Assembly: GCA_951812745.1 (NCBI GenBank)
Contig: OX638327.1
Coordinates: 1,787,914 to 1,851,913 of the forward strand
Length of the DNA stretch: 64,000 nt
Direction of reading: 5' to 3'
Source: an uncultured Nitrospirales bacterium
GTDB lineage: Bacteria; Nitrospirota; Nitrospiria; Nitrospirales; UBA8639
Made by a program: the position numbers and the translations under genes. Position 1 is the stretch's first letter. Each line of letters opens with the position of its first letter. The notes beneath the pieces are model-generated. The model did not search any database. It saw nothing but the letters and a program-made list of their open reading frames with translations, and had not been told where the DNA came from. Of the stretch, positions 39,482 to 47,795 are shown one piece after another.

Positions 39482-40834
39482 TCACGGTAAAACATCAATC
39501 GTCACTTTGACGGGAAAGAGGCCATCAACGTCTTGGCGGCGGCGCACGTCGCGGAGCAGCGTCTCGACTCGGGGTGTCACCATGCCCTGAAAACTGGTCC
39601 GGCCGTCGGTCACCACAGTCACCGGTCCGGAAAAATCGATCAGTGCGTCGTTCAAAAAGAGGGTGTATCGCCGGACCCGGTCGGTTCTGACCTCAAGATG
39701 ATTCTCGCCTCTCACTTCAACCGCCAGCCTCGCATAAACCTTGTTTTTGATCAGGTCACCGTGCTGATCGATCAACTGCTCTGAAAACATGGCGATACGG
39801 TCAGTGGCATCGATGCGCACCCACCCGAAATCCGTCAAGTGGCTCGCGTCACGAACCACGGTCAATTTCCGCGGATACGGATCACGGCGTTGATGCTCAA
39901 ACCACTCCACCAGGGCCGGCAACTCCTGGCGAGGGAAAAAATGGCCCCCGGCATGCGGATGCGACCACTCATGTTCACGATACGTAAACGCGATACCCAG
40001 CCGGGCCAACTCATTCGTGATGTTCCGGCTCAGCCAGACCGGCATGATACGATCCTTGGCCCCATGGATCACGTACACCGGCGTATGTCGAAGATTTTCC
40101 AGAAAGGGATACAAGACATCATCGATTCCACCGGCCATCGGCGCCACCGCCGCAAACCGCGGCGCGTGATGCATCCCGATAATCCACGCGCCGATGCCGC
40201 CGTTCGACATGCCCGTCAGGTAAACGCGATCGGGATCGATGCGATAGTGCGCGCGGACGTTCTTGATGGTCGCGAACACCAACTCCTCGCTCGACCTGGT
40301 CCACCACGTCCCCGCCATGGCCGTCGGACAGGCAAGAATATGGGACTCGCCCAACCGCTTTGCCCACCGCTCCAGGTACGAGTCTCCCGTAAACCCCGCT
40401 CCATGCAGACACACCACCAGGGGAAAGGCGACCTCAGGATCATAGGCAGACGGCACGAACAATCCATACGACAAGGTTTGTCCACGTACCCGAACCGGTT
40501 GACTCGGAAGCATGCCCACCGGAGCCGCCTCATAGATTCGTCGTTCTCGCAGGACCTCGCGTACTCCTTCAAGACTCGCTTGAGGATGAACCAGAATCGC
40601 CTGCAACAAGGACTCGGCCTGTTCACGATCTTCGTTCGTCAGATACTGCGGAATGAGCGTCGCCAGGGATTGGGCTGAAACCTGGGGCGGCACGGCCGCC
40701 GAACCTGACCGCGAGGCCTGCCCCGACGCACCGGCATCAATGGACAGCCCGTCAACGGCCAGTAATCCGAGAAAAAGCACGAATCGCAGCACCATCACCA
40801 AGCCACGGCGAGCAAAGGTCCCTCTATGCACCAT
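39482..40834 (-). CDS. Exported alpha/beta hydrolase (esterase/PHB depolymerase-like)
   Basis: 450 aa from ATG 40834, which overlaps the recQ 3' end by 11 bp; a later ATG at 40795 is also possible. A hydrophobic export signal ([16 protein letters not shown]) is followed by the hydrolase fold: [20 protein letters not shown] (oxyanion HGAG), the nucleophile elbow [14 protein letters not shown] (Ser), [11 protein letters not shown] (acid) and [13 protein letters not shown] (His). Resembles predicted peptidases/esterases with a C-terminal beta domain. The substrate is unknown. Confidence 0.85.
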
Positions 40835-42662
40835 CACGCTCCGCGAATACGTGTTCCCGCACGACCCGTAAAAACGCCTCACCATACTTCCTCAGTTTAT
40901 GCTCGCCAACACCTTGGATTTGTTCCATTGCTTCCCGCTTCAGAGGCTTGAGCCGCACCAACTCACGCAGGGTCGTGTCGTGAAACACGACGTAAGGCGG
41001 CACTCCCTGCTCCTTGGCCAGGGCCGTACGCGCCTTCCGCAAAGCCTGCCACAGGATCTCGTCGCTTGGCGTCATCGGGACAGGGGACACGGCAACCTTT
41101 CCTTTCTTCACCGTGGCGGCACGCCGCAACCGACGCAGGGTCAGCCCACACTCGCCGCGCAACACCGGAAACGACTGATCCGTCAGGCGCAGGGCATCGA
41201 AACGCTCGGCGTCCACCCGAAGGCAGCCCTGGGCAATGAGCTGGCGAAAAATGGAGCGCCACTCGGTGGCGCTGTGTTCCGCGCCAATGCCGAACACTTC
41301 CAGCCGGTCGTGGCGCCACTCGCGGATGCGCGCAGTGTCCTTACCGATGAGCACGTCGACCAGGTAGTTCACGCCGAAGCGCTGGCCGGTGCGGGAGACG
41401 CAGGTCATGGCCTTCTGCGCGGCCTCGGTGCCGTCCCAGGTCTGCGGCGGGTCCACGCAGTTGTCGCAATTGCCGCAGGACTCCCCCGGCTCTTCCCCGA
41501 AGTAGGCGCGAATGGCACGACGGCGGCAGGTAGCGAGTTCGCACAAGCCCACCATGGCTTCCAGTTTCTGGTGCTCCACCCGCTTATGCGCCGCGTCGGC
41601 TTCGGACTCGGACAACCACTGGCGGAAGACGATGATTTCCTTCAGGCCGTAATTCATCCACGCGCTGGCCGGCAGGCCGTCGCGGCCCGCACGCCCCGTT
41701 TCCTGGTAATAGGCCTCGATACTCTTCGGCAAGCTGAGGTGAGCGACAAAGCGCACGTCGGGTTTGTCGATGCCCATGCCGAACGCGATCGTGGCGACAA
41801 TCACCACGCCATCCTCGCGCAGAAACCGTTCCTGGTGCCGCCGACGCGTGTGATCCGCAAGGCCTGCGTGGTAGGGCAGCGCATCGCGCCCACGGGCTCG
41901 CAGCCACTCGGCGGTCTCCTCTACTTTTTTGCGCGACAGACAATAGACAATACCGGCGTCGTTGGGATGCTCGCTTTGGAGAAAGCGCCACATGCGCTCG
42001 CGACCGTTATCATCGTCGGAGATGGTGTAGCGAATATTGGGACGATCACAACTGTGGAGATAGACGTTGGCTTTTTCCAGTTGCAGTTGAGAAATGATTT
42101 CCCGGCGGGTCGCCTGGTCGGCGGTGGCCGTCAGGGCGATGCGCGGGACCGAGGGATACCGCTCGTGCAGCACCGACAACTGCAAATACTCCTCACGGAA
42201 GTCGTGCCCCCAGCGCGACACGCAATGCGCTTCGTCAATGGCGAACAACGCGATGGTTTGCCGGTCCAGCCATTCCAGGGTCCGCTCCTGCAGCAGGCGC
42301 TCCGGCGCGACGTAGAGGACATCCAGCTTCCCGCCGTTCACTGCCGCCTCCACCGACCGTACCTCCTCAAAATCCAGGGTGGAGTTCAGGCAGGCCGCGC
42401 GTACCCCGCACTGGCGAAGCGCGTCCACCTGGTCCTTCATCAACGCAATCAGGGGCGACACCACGACGCCTACCCCGTCACGCATCATGGCCGGTATCTG
42501 GTAACACAACGATTTGCCCCCGCCCGTCGGCATCAGGACCATCGCGTCCCTGCCGGCCAGCAGGTCCTCAATCACTTCCTCCTGGCGCAAACGAAACGAC
42601 GAATGCCCGAACACGGTCCGGAGAAGACGAAGAGGCTCGTCAGTGGATCTGAGCAGTTCCAT
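40824..42662 (-). CDS. recQ: ATP-dependent DNA helicase RecQ
   Basis: 3'-5' helicase in recombination and repair, 612 aa. Walker A is [16 protein letters not shown], the DEAH box [15 protein letters not shown] and motif VI-like [13 protein letters not shown]. The Zn-binding RQC module has [17 protein letters not shown] followed by CGNCDNC. A winged helix and the C-terminal HRDC domain ([20 protein letters not shown]) follow. All expected domains are present. GAGG precedes the ATG. Confidence 0.97.
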
Positions 42663-42907
42663 TGCGTGTGTTCCTCAATTCCTGTTCCAGCCCGATGAGG
42701 CGGTTGACGGTCAATCCGCGTTACCGGCGCATTATAGCAGAACGACAATTGAGGCGAAGGATAGACGGATTCGTTAGTGATTGGGATATAATATTTCTTT
42801 AACCTGATCACCAATAGCAACCATTATTGAGGCTAACCCCATGAGCAAATGCGTGCAAGCCCGCCCTGAGGTGGACGCTGAAACCTGGACAGAGAATTGA
42901 CTTATAT
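42663..42907. other. Left edge of the AT-rich island
   Basis: Composition drops in GC from about 42770. A promoter-like TATAAT occurs at about 42786-42791 (GGGATATAATATT). A 19-codon ORF (42841-42900, MSKCVQARPEVDAETWTEN) could be a leader peptide or a truncated end of a lost gene. No inverted repeats of a transposon were recognised. Confidence 0.4.
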
Positions 42908-43585
42908 GTGAAAAAGAGGGCGCTCTTAAAAGGTATTTACCCCGACAAAATGCTTACAACAGAACAACAAAATGTCTTCGATTGGCTAAACGACAAGCTC
43001 CAAGTACCGGTGTTTGCTGAAGCGTACAAAGGAGCACTGGATCTCCTAGACGAGAAGCCGCCGGGTTACATTACCTTCGTGGCTCATACTGGTAGGGACA
43101 TAATGAACCTTCTTGCCCGAACCATCACCGGCACTGAGGGTGGTTTGGTTGAGTATCGCATGCATGTCAACAAGTTACAGGCTAAATGGCAACCCGAATG
43201 GGGAGGTCAAGGATTAACAACATCCGATAATGCTCAAGTGGGACATTTGATTCCTTACGATATATGCCAGATTATAAAAGACCTGATTGCTGATCACGAA
43301 ACAGGTCAAAAAAGAGAGAACATGGCTGATATCCTCTTTTTTAGAACCTTTTTGGATTATGACGACAAAGACAGAATACCCCAAAATTTTTTGAAGGAAT
43401 GGAAGGCGGCAAAAAAATGGTTTCTGGCCCACGCCCATCTACGACCAAGAAGGTTTGCCGCGGATGCGCCATCTGAAGTGACAAGGCATTTTCAGGCGTT
43501 GGATGGCTTACTATACGTGGCTGCAAGCAGCGAATTCGAACGAATAAGGGGCATCCATGAAATCTTGGAAGAAACCAACGGATGA
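42908..43585 (+). CDS. Uncharacterised island protein, partner of the 968-aa gene
   Basis: 225 aa from a GTG at 42908 (ATG 42950 is an alternative). There are no membrane spans and no known catalytic motif. The most distinctive block is PPGYITFVAHTGRDIMNLLA near residue 50, followed by a charged helical region and a C-terminal HLRPRRFAADAPSE. It overlaps the next gene by 29 bp, indicating a fixed two-gene unit. Base composition is lower in GC than its neighbours, which suggests acquisition by transfer. Function is unknown; association with defence is a hypothesis based on context. Confidence 0.75.
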   Translation: MKKRALLKGIYPDKMLTTEQQNVFDWLNDKLQVPVFAEAYKGALDLLDEKPPGYITFVAHTGRDIMNLLARTITGTEGGLVEYRMHVNKLQAKWQPEWGGQGLTTSDNAQVGHLIPYDICQIIKDLIADHETGQKRENMADILFFRTFLDYDDKDRIPQNFLKEWKAAKKWFLAHAHLRPRRFAADAPSEVTRHFQALDGLLYVAASSEFERIRGIHEILEETNG

Positions 43586-46463
43586 ACTGATAGATAAGGC
43601 CCTGACGTCAGTAAAAAAAGAAACTGACCGTCAGTATTTCTTCTCCCGGTTGAAAAACCCTCTATGGATTCAACCGTTAGCTGAGCGTGACTATTTTCAA
43701 TATCCTCCAGGAGTCAGACATTTGCCTGACGGTTATGTTCAATTACCGTTCTGGCCAGAACTTCAATACCTGAAGAACATGTCTATTCATGCGCCAGACG
43801 AAGTCATTGAAATAGTACTACGGCTTCCCAAAGTCGATAACCCACGGGTCTACGATGACATTCTCGATATCGCATTGCGAATTCACGGCCATCAATCCGC
43901 AAGACTTAAACCCAAGATACTTGAATATACTGGCATAGAGTACCAGTTGTTCGCAGACAGATACGCAGATTTGTTAGCCCATTGGACAGCAGAGAATCAA
44001 ATACAGGCTGCTTTGGAGCTATTACAGATACTCATCAAGTTTATGCCTGACCCTCAATCAAAACAGAAGCAAGCGCAACGTAAGAAGAACCCGGTTGATA
44101 TGCCTCGACCGCTGGAACCTGTTCCACGATTCGATGAATGGAAATATGTGAAGATATTGGAGAAAGGTGTCCGTCCGCTGGTTGAAAAAGAACCACTCAA
44201 AGTTACCTGCATCCTAATTGACGCTACGGCTGATATGTTTGATCTGCACAAGGATCAGGATGAGCTTGACAAGGGCAAAGACGAGGACTCGTCTGAAATT
44301 TGGTGGCCTCGGCTCGATGAACAAGATAGCGATTGCCAGGACGCCAAAACAGCACTTATTCATACCCTGATTTTTGCATGCGAGGAGGTTTACCAAGAAT
44401 CCGCTGGATCTATCACGCCGTTGGATGAAGTTCTATGCAAGCAGCGTTGGAAGGTTTTTAAACGCCTTCGCCAGCACCTTTACGCCCTGCACCCAAACGA
44501 GCAAACCAAACCCTGGATCAGAGAGTTGATCCTGGCACATGGAGATTACGCTCGATGGGAATACCCTTACGAATTTCAGCGAATGATACGGATCGTCTGT
44601 GAACACTTCGGCACGGAGTTGCTCACGGAAGAAGAGCTTACACCAATTTTCAATGCCATCCGTAGCGGTCCGTCAAAAACGAATTGCCGCGAATCGATGG
44701 GCGATCAATTCACCGAAGAGCTTTTCATACAACGTCAGCGGCATTTCCAGAGGATGCAGTTCAAACCCTTTGCTTCTGTATTATTTGGCGAATATGCGAC
44801 CTACTTCCAAGAGTTGGAGATTGAAGCCGACAAACAGATTTCCGATGAGACTTATTCCCCTGTTATATGTCGCGTCGGAACGATGTCTTCTCAGAGCCCG
44901 AGATCACAAGAAGAACTCGAAAACCTCCCAGATGAAGAGCTACTCACCTACACTAACGAATGGCAGGAAGAACATCACGATAAGGATGACTGGTTGGTAG
45001 AGATTAACATCGCAGCCCTCGCAGAAGCGTTTCAAACCGTTTTCAGTAAATCAATCATCCCGGATGCAAGTAGGCTCAAGTTTTGGCTCGACAATTGCGA
45101 ACGGATCGAGCGGCCCATTTACATCCGGGCAATGGTCGATGAGATGAAAGAACACGTCAAGGCGAAAACCTTCGACAAACTCAAAAAATGGTTAATGTTT
45201 TGCGAATGGGTACTTTCGCACCCGGACCAGGACCCGGAAGAAGAAGGCACCGGACTCAGCGACGAGTCCCGGGAGCATCCCTATTGGCATAGCTCACGGC
45301 GGGCAGTCGGTGACTTTATAGGAGTCTGTATAGAAAAAGACGTGCCAATTTCCGCTCAGAGGCAACTAGCCAAGCTTTTGGAAATACTATGTACGCAATT
45401 TGATTGGAGACTGGATCGGAATAAGCCGGTCCTTTCGCACCACGAAGACCAACTCACAGAGGCTTTTACCAATATTAGGAGCCGTGCACTACGAAGTCTT
45501 GTTGATTTCGGTTTCTGGTTGCGGAGACATGACCACACGACCGACATTGCCATGGTAACGACGATTCTTGAAAAACGCTTCGCCCCTGAAACGGAATATC
45601 CTTTATCACTGCCTGAACACGCAATTCTGGGCAGGCACTACGGACATATTTTCAATCTTGATGAGACGTGGGCAACTGAGCACAAATCAGACTTTTTCCC
45701 GCAAGATAAATGGCCTGCATGGATAGAGGCATTCAAGGGCTTCGTCTGCTCTAACCGCCCGTTCAAGCAAATATTCAATATTCTTCGCGATGATTTCGAT
45801 TTTGCGTTGGAACATCTGGGCAAATTCAAAGATCAAGAAAGCTTTGGCGAAAATCCGATTGAGATTCTCGGACGACACCTGTTCACCTATTATTTGTCGG
45901 GCGTGTACCCACTCAACGGAGAAAGAAGCCTGCTTGACCGATATTATCAGCACACAGATGACAATCGAATCTACTGGGCTAGTTTGTTCGACGATGTCGG
46001 CAAATGGTTACGGAACAGCGGGAAGACTCTTGATGCTGCTTTGCATGAAAAGATTATAGAGTTCTTCGACTGGCGGTTTGAAGTTGGAGAGGCGACGGAA
46101 CTACAGAACTTTTCATTCTGGTTGGAAGCCGAATGCCTGGATACTGAGTGGCGGTTGAAAGCCTATTCCAAGGTTTTGGATGTCTGCATATCGAAAAACT
46201 TAGCACCTTCAGGTAACGATAGAGGGTTAGATCCATTAGTTAGAATGCTTGCAGATCACACTGCAAAGGTGGTCGAATGCTTTGCCAAGTTTACCGATTG
46301 TGCTCTCAAGCACAAGATGTACATTGTTGAAACCGCTAAGGCGCGCACTATCTTGAAAGCGGGCCTTGAAAGCAGCGACGCAAGCGTCCGTCAGAACGCC
46401 GAACGTGCCCGGGAAAACCTACTTCGTGTCGGCCACTTCGATTTCTTGGATATGGAAGATTGA
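43557..46463 (+). CDS. Large uncharacterised helical protein (968 aa)
   Basis: The protein is predicted to be almost wholly alpha-helical and acidic, without membrane spans, P-loop, SIR2, TIR or nuclease motifs that I can see. Repeated helix pairs with W/F-rich borders (WEYPYEFQRMIRIVCEHFG; WPAWIEAFKGFVCSNRPFKQ; GRHLFTYYLSGVYPLNGE) recall the C-terminal helical sensor regions of large STAND-type defence proteins, though no NTPase domain is attached. A Lys/Gln-rich linker lies near residue 175 and an acidic stretch near 225-240. The first 29 bp overlap the upstream gene. AT-rich codon use suggests recent acquisition. Confidence 0.75.
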   Translation: MKSWKKPTDELIDKALTSVKKETDRQYFFSRLKNPLWIQPLAERDYFQYPPGVRHLPDGYVQLPFWPELQYLKNMSIHAPDEVIEIVLRLPKVDNPRVYDDILDIALRIHGHQSARLKPKILEYTGIEYQLFADRYADLLAHWTAENQIQAALELLQILIKFMPDPQSKQKQAQRKKNPVDMPRPLEPVPRFDEWKYVKILEKGVRPLVEKEPLKVTCILIDATADMFDLHKDQDELDKGKDEDSSEIWWPRLDEQDSDCQDAKTALIHTLIFACEEVYQESAGSITPLDEVLCKQRWKVFKRLRQHLYALHPNEQTKPWIRELILAHGDYARWEYPYEFQRMIRIVCEHFGTELLTEEELTPIFNAIRSGPSKTNCRESMGDQFTEELFIQRQRHFQRMQFKPFASVLFGEYATYFQELEIEADKQISDETYSPVICRVGTMSSQSPRSQEELENLPDEELLTYTNEWQEEHHDKDDWLVEINIAALAEAFQTVFSKSIIPDASRLKFWLDNCERIERPIYIRAMVDEMKEHVKAKTFDKLKKWLMFCEWVLSHPDQDPEEEGTGLSDESREHPYWHSSRRAVGDFIGVCIEKDVPISAQRQLAKLLEILCTQFDWRLDRNKPVLSHHEDQLTEAFTNIRSRALRSLVDFGFWLRRHDHTTDIAMVTTILEKRFAPETEYPLSLPEHAILGRHYGHIFNLDETWATEHKSDFFPQDKWPAWIEAFKGFVCSNRPFKQIFNILRDDFDFALEHLGKFKDQESFGENPIEILGRHLFTYYLSGVYPLNGERSLLDRYYQHTDDNRIYWASLFDDVGKWLRNSGKTLDAALHEKIIEFFDWRFEVGEATELQNFSFWLEAECLDTEWRLKAYSKVLDVCISKNLAPSGNDRGLDPLVRMLADHTAKVVECFAKFTDCALKHKMYIVETAKARTILKAGLESSDASVRQNAERARENLLRVGHFDFLDMED

Positions 46464-46634
46464 TAACGCCGTGCAAAGGTTCAGGGCTTGCTACCGAAAC
46501 TCACCATACACATGACATTCTTATTTCATCTTTTGGCGTAAGTGTTAATATTATAAATCACCCTCAGAGGACAGACCTAGTATTCTGTAAGATCCTGTTC
46601 TTCTTGTTTCTGACATCTTCACAAAGCAGATGAC

Positions 46635-46874
46635 ATGCCAACGGTTCCCAATATCACAGGCCCCTACCGTCTTTTCTTTTATAGCTTTGACTGTCATGAA
46701 CCTCCGCATGTCCACATACGTCGAGAACGAATGACATGTAAGTTTTGGCTGGAGCCGGTTGCGTTAAGCATGAATCATGGGTTTTCACCTCACGAATTGA
46801 ATCGTATACGGGCAATAATTTTGGAGCATCAAGACTCCATCATGGAGGCGTGGCATGAGCATTGTAGCGAGTAA
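46635..46874 (+). CDS. DUF4160 protein (putative toxin-antitoxin component)
   Basis: The 79-aa product has the DUF4160 motif YRLFFYSFDCHEPPHVHIRR with conserved His residues, followed by FSPHELNRIRAIILEHQ. DUF4160 and DUF2442 genes are very often paired and are suspected toxin-antitoxin-like modules without confirmed activity. The 3' end overlaps the next gene by 20 bp. Confidence 0.88.
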   Translation: MPTVPNITGPYRLFFYSFDCHEPPHVHIRRERMTCKFWLEPVALSMNHGFSPHELNRIRAIILEHQDSIMEAWHEHCSE

Positions 46875-47130
46875 CGATCCACGGATTATGACGGTAGAGG
46901 TGACTGACGACCTCATCATCGCTCATCTCGCAGATGGCCGAACGGTCAGCGTGCCGCTGGCGTGGTCGTGGCGTTTATCCAATGCGACGCCAGCGCAACG
47001 TCAGCACTTTGACATTATCGGGACAGGGCAAGGGGTCCACTGGCCGGATATTGATGAGGATCTCAGCGCCCTCGGCATGCTCACCGGCGTACCCGCCCCG
47101 CCGCCGAAGCATAAGGCATTGTCAACCTAG
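46855..47130 (+). CDS. DUF2442 protein (putative partner of DUF4160)
   Basis: The 91-aa product shows the DUF2442 pattern: LIIAHLADGRTVSVPLAWSW, then the IGTGQGVHWPDIDEDLSALG ending typical of the family. It is the presumed DNA-binding or antitoxin half of the pair. It overlaps DUF4160 by 20 bp and marks the right end of the accessory island. Confidence 0.9.
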   Translation: MSIVASNDPRIMTVEVTDDLIIAHLADGRTVSVPLAWSWRLSNATPAQRQHFDIIGTGQGVHWPDIDEDLSALGMLTGVPAPPPKHKALST

Positions 47131-47141
47131 AAAGCCCCCCC

Positions 47142-47795
47142 TTACGCCATCTTGAGCAATTCGGCGATGGCGCCGCTCACGCCTTCGAAAATCTGGTGCG
47201 GCTTGGCCGTTCCGTACATGTACGCCGGAGTGGTGATCACCTTATTTGAGGAATCCACCACGAACTTCTCGACCGCGCAATTGGTATGCTTGGCCCCGGT
47301 TTTTTCGACTTCAGACGCCGTGCCTTGGTCCTCGCCGATCGTGACGTTCACCCCCTTGTCGCCGAATGCCAAGGCCATGATCGCCGGGGCGATACAAATC
47401 GCGGCAATGGGTTTCCGGCCGTCGTGAAATTCCTTCACGATGCGCAGGACTTGCGGATCGATCTCTCCACCGCTGCCCTTCTGCGCAAAATCACACAAAT
47501 GCAGCGCCGCCCCAAACCCACCGGGAAACGCCAGGGCGTCGAAGTCCTGCGCATGAAGTGCTTCGAGGGGCTGAATGTCCCCTCGCGCAATCCTGGCGGC
47601 CTCCTGCAGCACGTTTCTGTTTTGGCCGGTGGCCTGCTGCGTCAGGTGGTTCGTCTCGGCCGCGTCCTTATCCGGTGCGAAACACTGATAATCCGCACCG
47701 TGTTGACCGATCGCCACCAGCGTGCTGATCGCTTCGGTGATCTCCGCTCCATCCAAAAACCCGCAGCCCGATAAAATGACAGCAACTTTTTTCAT
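47142..47795 (-). CDS. elbB: Isoprenoid biosynthesis glyoxalase ElbB-like (DJ-1/PfpI superfamily)
   Basis: The 217-aa protein shows the ElbB start VAVILSGCGFLDGAEITEAI, FPGGFGAALHLCDFAQKGSG and the nucleophile-elbow Cys in PIAAICIAPAIMAL. ElbB-type proteins have weak glyoxalase activity and an unclear physiological role. GGGAGGG precedes the ATG. Confidence 0.94.
   Translation of the reverse strand: MKKVAVILSGCGFLDGAEITEAISTLVAIGQHGADYQCFAPDKDAAETNHLTQQATGQNRNVLQEAARIARGDIQPLEALHAQDFDALAFPGGFGAALHLCDFAQKGSGGEIDPQVLRIVKEFHDGRKPIAAICIAPAIMALAFGDKGVNVTIGEDQGTASEVEKTGAKHTNCAVEKFVVDSSNKVITTPAYMYGTAKPHQIFEGVSGAIAELLKMA

Follow-up and report, generated by a model that had tools for sequence, protein, structure and literature searches.

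In DSR2, a SIR2 effector is switched by a C-terminal sensor whose trigger is the tail tube protein (PMC10981675), and DSR1 (defense-associated sirtuin 1; PDLC04166/PDLC04167) acts without cell death according to a review (PMC10952713). Here we analyze a two-gene unit in a 64,000-nucleotide stretch of DNA from an uncultured Nitrospirales bacterium (assembly GCA_951812745.1, contig OX638327.1, positions 1,787,914 to 1,851,913; hereafter, the window). Its large gene encodes a sensor subunit of the DSR1 type, and its small gene encodes a member of a helical protein family without annotation (Table 1). We consider it probable that the pair forms an immune receptor like DSR1 but in two chains, with an as yet undescribed effector that may be a nuclease. 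The sensor itself is already known; the literature searched, which did not cover most subscription papers, contained no description of its pairing with the small effector, of the small family, or of how widely effectors are exchanged.

A DSR1-type sensor and its small partner

Searches of the Pfam and NCBIfam databases yielded no worthwhile match for the large protein. The PADLOC profile for Dsr1 (PDLC04166) matched it with an E-value of 5.6e-22, and more central relatives reached 1e-47 over profile positions of about 300-1225. This profile has 1227 positions, with the SIR2 domain at 4-279, and the sensors of the window's family align after that domain; the large protein is therefore DSR1 minus SIR2. 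No SIR2 domain was found in the same protein or in an adjacent gene of the window pair, where the upstream partner belongs to the small family, and for this reason the pair was not classed as DSR1. A match of the large protein to HepC glycosyltransferase (E-value 0.004) was far below the family cut-off and was rejected. Profile searches of the PDB, with the DSR2 structures included, revealed no sequence relative of the sensor, and no relatives were found in the phage and viral collections. An AlphaFold2 model of a natural fusion of small protein and sensor from Nitrospira defluvii (L036) is all helical, with a mean predicted local distance difference test score (pLDDT) of 78 and a predicted template modeling score of 0.47; it was built from alignment A7 after a mixed alignment (A6) with misaligned rows had been dropped. 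Its structural matches in the PDB were karyopherins, CAND1, and MMS19, all at low TM-score, so that the model points to the HEAT-solenoid class and to no specific relative.

The original prediction, made from the DNA sequence alone, had proposed a sensor and an effector split over two proteins without an NTPase, the larger of which resembled the sensors of STAND-type defense proteins. The large protein is indeed the DSR1 sensor region, and neither window protein matched a P-loop NTPase family in Pfam or NCBIfam. The intuition about STAND proteins was a good one, because haloarchaeal plasmids carry this same sensor region behind AAA or nSTAND NTPases. The description of the unit as lacking any recognized family holds for the small protein, whereas the large protein is the sensor of a known defense family.

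Having defined the sensor, we examined how consistently it accompanies the small protein. Searches queried with the small protein or the corresponding profile covered 396 genomes of the window's own phylum and samples of 292 Nostoc and 350 Chloroflexi genomes, resulting in 18 full-length small proteins (8, 2, and 8, respectively); the window's phylum also gave a ninth match, a 59-residue fragment (G378). Pairing is obligatory: the sensor is fused to the small protein (5 cases) or encoded directly downstream, mostly in an overlapping frame, in all 18, a co-occurrence that had been set beforehand as a test of the original prediction. A genome scan based on the large protein, for which alignment A2 was used as A1 was too diverse, identified 31 further loci in Cyanobacteria, Patescibacteria, Chloroflexi, Poribacteria, Planctomycetota, Actinomycetota, and other groups. 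The gene pair, its order, and its overlap recur at only about 25% sequence identity, and the ratio of nonsynonymous to synonymous substitution rates between species of the window's genus is 0.19-0.30; together these values indicate that the pair is more than a chance arrangement. The overlap of 29 bp is kept at four other loci (L015, L016, L017, and L021). In Nostoc, a one-base indel within the overlap separates two loci with two genes (L029 and L032) from two encoding a single chain (L033 and L035), and the sensors of L029 and L033 are 90% identical. Judging from such sequences, fused and split forms interconvert.

Among the more unusual relatives is a fusion of small protein and sensor (L124:7625-11521) whose open frame starts with the Arm-DNA-binding domain of an integrase (Pfam 1.1e-24), which may be left over from an integration event. 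Two Planctomycetota proteins of about 1510 residues (L056:3055-7599 and L090:969-5483) place some 400 residues before the small module and sensor, a region without a Pfam family beyond a weak match to MarR. Several loci from metagenome-assembled genomes (MAGs) have interrupted frames, perhaps due to assembly error.

Exchange of effector modules on the same sensor

The position taken by the small protein is filled by known defense effectors in other relatives of the sensor. SIR2 is encoded by a separate gene adjacent to and preceding the sensor gene at nine loci (L023, L028, L031, L093-L097, and L101), a TIR domain is fused to the sensor in L092 (TIR_2, 2e-21), and a PIN nuclease is fused to it in L102 (PIN_12, 2.7e-23). 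In two actinobacterial MAGs, DUF255 is fused before a DSR1-type sensor. From these comparisons, the small protein occupies the effector position as a one-to-one replacement for SIR2, TIR, and PIN. Because the search patterns were derived from sensors of the small type, the proportions of effector types are skewed. On a quick sensor tree with a midpoint root, effector labels are interleaved, with at least 4 changes each for the small family and for SIR2. The PIN protein L102 nests within the window's clade; its sensor and the sensor of L109, a locus of the small type, share 76% identity, indicating that effector swaps are recent. Between the window and two congeners, synonymous divergence (dS) is discordant: it is 0.15 for the small gene and 0.64 for the large gene relative to L015, and 1.18 and 0.30, respectively, relative to L016. 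Recombination has therefore reassorted effector and sensor.

We lean slightly toward a broader reading of these data, in which the DSR1 sensor would be a general receptor platform that takes at least six effector-side modules (SIR2, TIR, PIN, AAA/STAND NTPase, DUF255, and the small family), fused or separate, and the small family would be an unrecognized catalytic effector present in many phyla and swapped through recombination where effector and sensor join. If so, DSR1 would no longer be a single sirtuin system but one example of a receptor platform whose effectors can be exchanged, and bacterial immunity would gain a new effector family. The occurrence of the same sensor with a PIN or a small effector, fused or split by one base, is a natural experiment, and such variants would allow the signaling of an alpha-solenoid sensor to unrelated enzymes to be probed directly. 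The DUF255 part of the actinobacterial proteins (L039:7946-12838 and L043:4590-9467), about 680 residues long and thioredoxin-like of the YyaL type, is an unusual effector candidate in its own right.

The small family and its possible activity

The small open reading frame (ORF) was first listed as 42908-43585, with a GTG start and 225 residues, and the large gene lies in a different frame. In a relative of the small protein that is 89% identical (genome G010), an in-frame TAG is located just 5' of the matching ATG, so translation in the window probably starts at ATG 42950 and yields 211 residues. The ORF of the original prediction is thus real, with a probable start further downstream, and the distinctive block it had noted, PPGYITFVAHTGRDIMNLLA, is present in the small protein. 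That the G010 gene is broken was ruled out, since the TAG lies 5' of the real start.

Direct searches of the small protein against Pfam, NCBIfam, and the PDB gave nothing useful, and matches to 6r1j and FtsE were attributed to chance. The AlphaFold2 model is all-helical, with seven helices (pLDDT 81). Among 32 aligned members of the family, R49 and [DE]50 are present in all 32, and H46 and H163 in 31 each (residues are counted from the Met at 42950); the lone copy with Y163 (L050) adjoins an interrupted sensor ORF. These residues persist though the sequences are otherwise 12-30% identical, and conservation of this kind appears enzyme-like. When the family was compared with three pP_pnuc_1 proteins using hhalign, the probability was 87% (P 4e-6) with a template of only three sequences, and controls with shuffled columns, with the alignment reversed, and with 22 large-family segments gave at most 0.9%. 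The probability drops to 29-35% without the closest subfamily, and the small family is therefore regarded as a probable distant relative of pP_pnuc_1 and not as a member. The best relative of the small protein scored 22.8 bits against pP_pnuc_1, for which the curated cut-off is 26.3 bits. One of the compared pP_pnuc_1 proteins also matches PADLOC Aga_Nuclease (2.5e-7).

An effector with a chemistry other than that of pP_pnuc_1, such as a metal-independent RNase resembling HEPN or an enzyme that degrades nucleotides, is a serious though not a likely alternative. The protein is all-alpha, and a helix with H/R/[DE] plus a separate histidine resembles HEPN sites. The HEPN motif Rx4-6H, however, is not kept in the family, where the second His lacks a conserved Arg ahead of it. 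A profile comparison with DUF4145 gave only 0.2%, which does not support a DUF4145/HEPN identity, and the Pfam scan gave no HEPN match above threshold. It is also conceivable, if doubtful, that the small protein is an adaptor or oligomerization module in a pair that is still an immune receptor, with killing left to a different factor or achieved through a blocked assembly. Its all-helical nature and the lack of a catalytic-fold match would fit such a role, as would the region preceding the small module in the two Planctomycetota proteins. Against an adaptor role are the four near-invariant polar residues kept at this level of divergence and the substitution for three effector domains, and most members lack another domain or a constant third gene.

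We return to the reading of the pair as a receptor with its own effector. Following the precedent of DSR1 and DSR2, whose SIR2 effectors are switched by a C-terminal sensor, we infer that the solenoid senses a phage component and that the small protein is activated as a result. Both subunits would be made together via the translation start inside the overlap and would form a complex that holds the small protein inactive. A phage component, most probably a protein, structural or otherwise, and not nucleic acid, would bind the solenoid; the complex would then rearrange and switch on the small protein, which would halt infection, most likely as a nuclease acting on phage and/or host nucleic acid via the H46/R49/[DE]50 helix and H163. 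The immune role had been offered as an inference in the original prediction and keeps that standing here.

Several observations weigh against this reading. H46 and H163 are each missing in 1 of the 32 sequences, and the link to pP_pnuc_1, itself only a predicted nuclease, rests mainly on the closest subfamily, with no Pfam match of the window's small protein to that family (PF18165) at E<=1. Foldseek searches of the small-protein model against the PDB and BFVD found no match, and with the extra residues in Planctomycetota the small module may act as an adaptor. Apart from a copy on a Streptomyces plasmid, the pair was not found on phages or plasmids.

Chromosomal setting and comparison with known systems

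The two overlapping genes form an island with a GC content of 47% in a genome of about 57% (45.6% for the small gene and 47.0% for the large gene); the remaining 3.5-kb intervals have a mean of 57.5% (standard deviation 2.1, minimum 52.4%; n=210). Of the neighboring genes, DUF2442 is normal in this respect (58.7%) and DUF4160 is low (46.2%). The ATG of the large gene is preceded by AAGGGG, which is Shine-Dalgarno-like, and no convincing consensus promoter was found in the leader.

Table 1. Features of the two-gene unit and its surroundings, in window positions.
Feature	Position	Strand	Description
recQ	40824..42662	-	One edge of the insertion hotspot
Leader between recQ and small gene	42663..42949	+	Intergenic, recQ divergent; 47.4% GC; presumed promoter region
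5' extension of small ORF	42908..42949	+	GTG start of the ORF in the original prediction; probably untranslated
Small gene	42950..43585	+	211 aa from ATG 42950, the probable true start; predicted effector module, all-helical
Small/large overlap	43557..43585	+	29 bp; encodes EILEETN(G) (small frame) and MKSWKKPTD (large frame)
Large gene	43557..46463	+	968 aa, ATG; DSR1-type alpha-solenoid sensor subunit without SIR2 domain
DUF4160 (DhiT-like) gene	46635..46874	+	Pfam 2.3e-21; separable neighboring cargo, outside the unit
DUF2442 gene	46855..47130	+	Pfam 2.1e-19; separable neighboring cargo
Class-I-glutaminase/DJ-1-like gene	47142..47795	-	Other hotspot edge; family assigned by inspection

Candidate defense genes use the interval from recQ to the DJ-1-like gene as a cargo hotspot. 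These two border genes directly adjoin each other, with nothing between them, in G005, G008, G011, and G012, and G006 carries only DUF4160/DUF2442 in this interval. These two genes are only partly present in G001, where DUF2442 alone is beside the pair, and in G010, where it is near recQ; in the latter genome the pair is on the opposite side of recQ, with DUF3800 nearby. Being present without the pair in G006, DUF4160/DUF2442 are separable cargo and were rejected as part of the system, so their adjacency, which had been cited as support in the original prediction, falls away, while the proposed transfer of the two genes as a unit stands.

The same observations bear on two further alternatives. 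In one, the genes would be a toxin-antitoxin or stress module without phage sensing, with a toxic small protein kept in check by the large one. The overlap of the genes and their position in an island next to a DhiT-like pair are suggestive of this, but a 968-residue DSR1-type sensor is unlike known antitoxins, natural fusions of the two chains occur in many phyla, and the DhiT-like pair is separable, making such a module improbable. In the other, the proteins would form a housekeeping or scaffold complex in a region that is merely AT-rich. HEAT-like solenoids are common scaffolds, yet no housekeeping fold was found for either protein, the pair is patchy (3/14 species of the genus and about 1-2% of the sampled genomes), empty sites are precise, and the same sensor carries defense effectors; we regard this alternative as very improbable.

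Elsewhere, the contexts of the homologs are mobile or defense-like, as the original prediction would lead one to expect. A SIR2 and sensor pair in Vibrio adjoins McrBC, and the Streptomyces copy adjoins Tn7-like transposition genes. Type II methyltransferases and MADS components recur among 130 neighbors of the relatives elsewhere, a count made without a control set. At the hotspot of G013 are a gene for an AAA_21/AbiLi/AriA-like ATPase and a DUF3226 gene (L190:4760-6444), a PADLOC candidate (PDC-M38A/B). In G001, a DUF1016/YhcG nuclease gene (PADLOC PDC-S02) directly upstream of the pair (L016:14869-15881) is apparently frameshifted into two ORFs. At two loci (L083:5634-7025 and L084:5895-7379), a gene that appears DNA methyltransferase-like by eye ends a few bases before the small gene starts; these genes are perhaps co-transcribed restriction components. 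A reading of an L015 neighbor as SLATT, made by eye, was unsupported by Pfam or PADLOC.

Among known systems, DSR1 is the closest to the window pair. The large protein is homologous to the entire region past SIR2, the effector-sensor order is the same, and several relatives are tandem SIR2 and sensor genes; the window pair differs in being two chains with an unannotated helical family in place of SIR2. The haloarchaeal AAA/nSTAND proteins (L003-L005 and L024-L026) share the sensor region (Dsr1 E-values of 1e-29 to 1e-40 for L003-L005), but are single chains of 1360-1480 residues in which an N-terminal NTPase replaces the small module. Similarity to pP_pnuc_1 (predicted pPIWI-associating nuclease) is distant and at the profile level, covering the HxxR[DE] helix and extending further along in one subfamily; every small-family member tested is under the Pfam cut-off, pP_pnuc_1 is uncharacterized, and the small family is a partner of the DSR1 sensor and not of PIWI. 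DSR2 is similar in outline, with an N-terminal effector and a large helical C-terminal sensor (PMC10981675), but the window sensor has no detectable sequence similarity to the DSR2 chains in the PDB. Avs/STAND receptors, whose NTPase core is absent from the window proteins, have in common with them a modular effector-sensor logic with exchangeable effectors.

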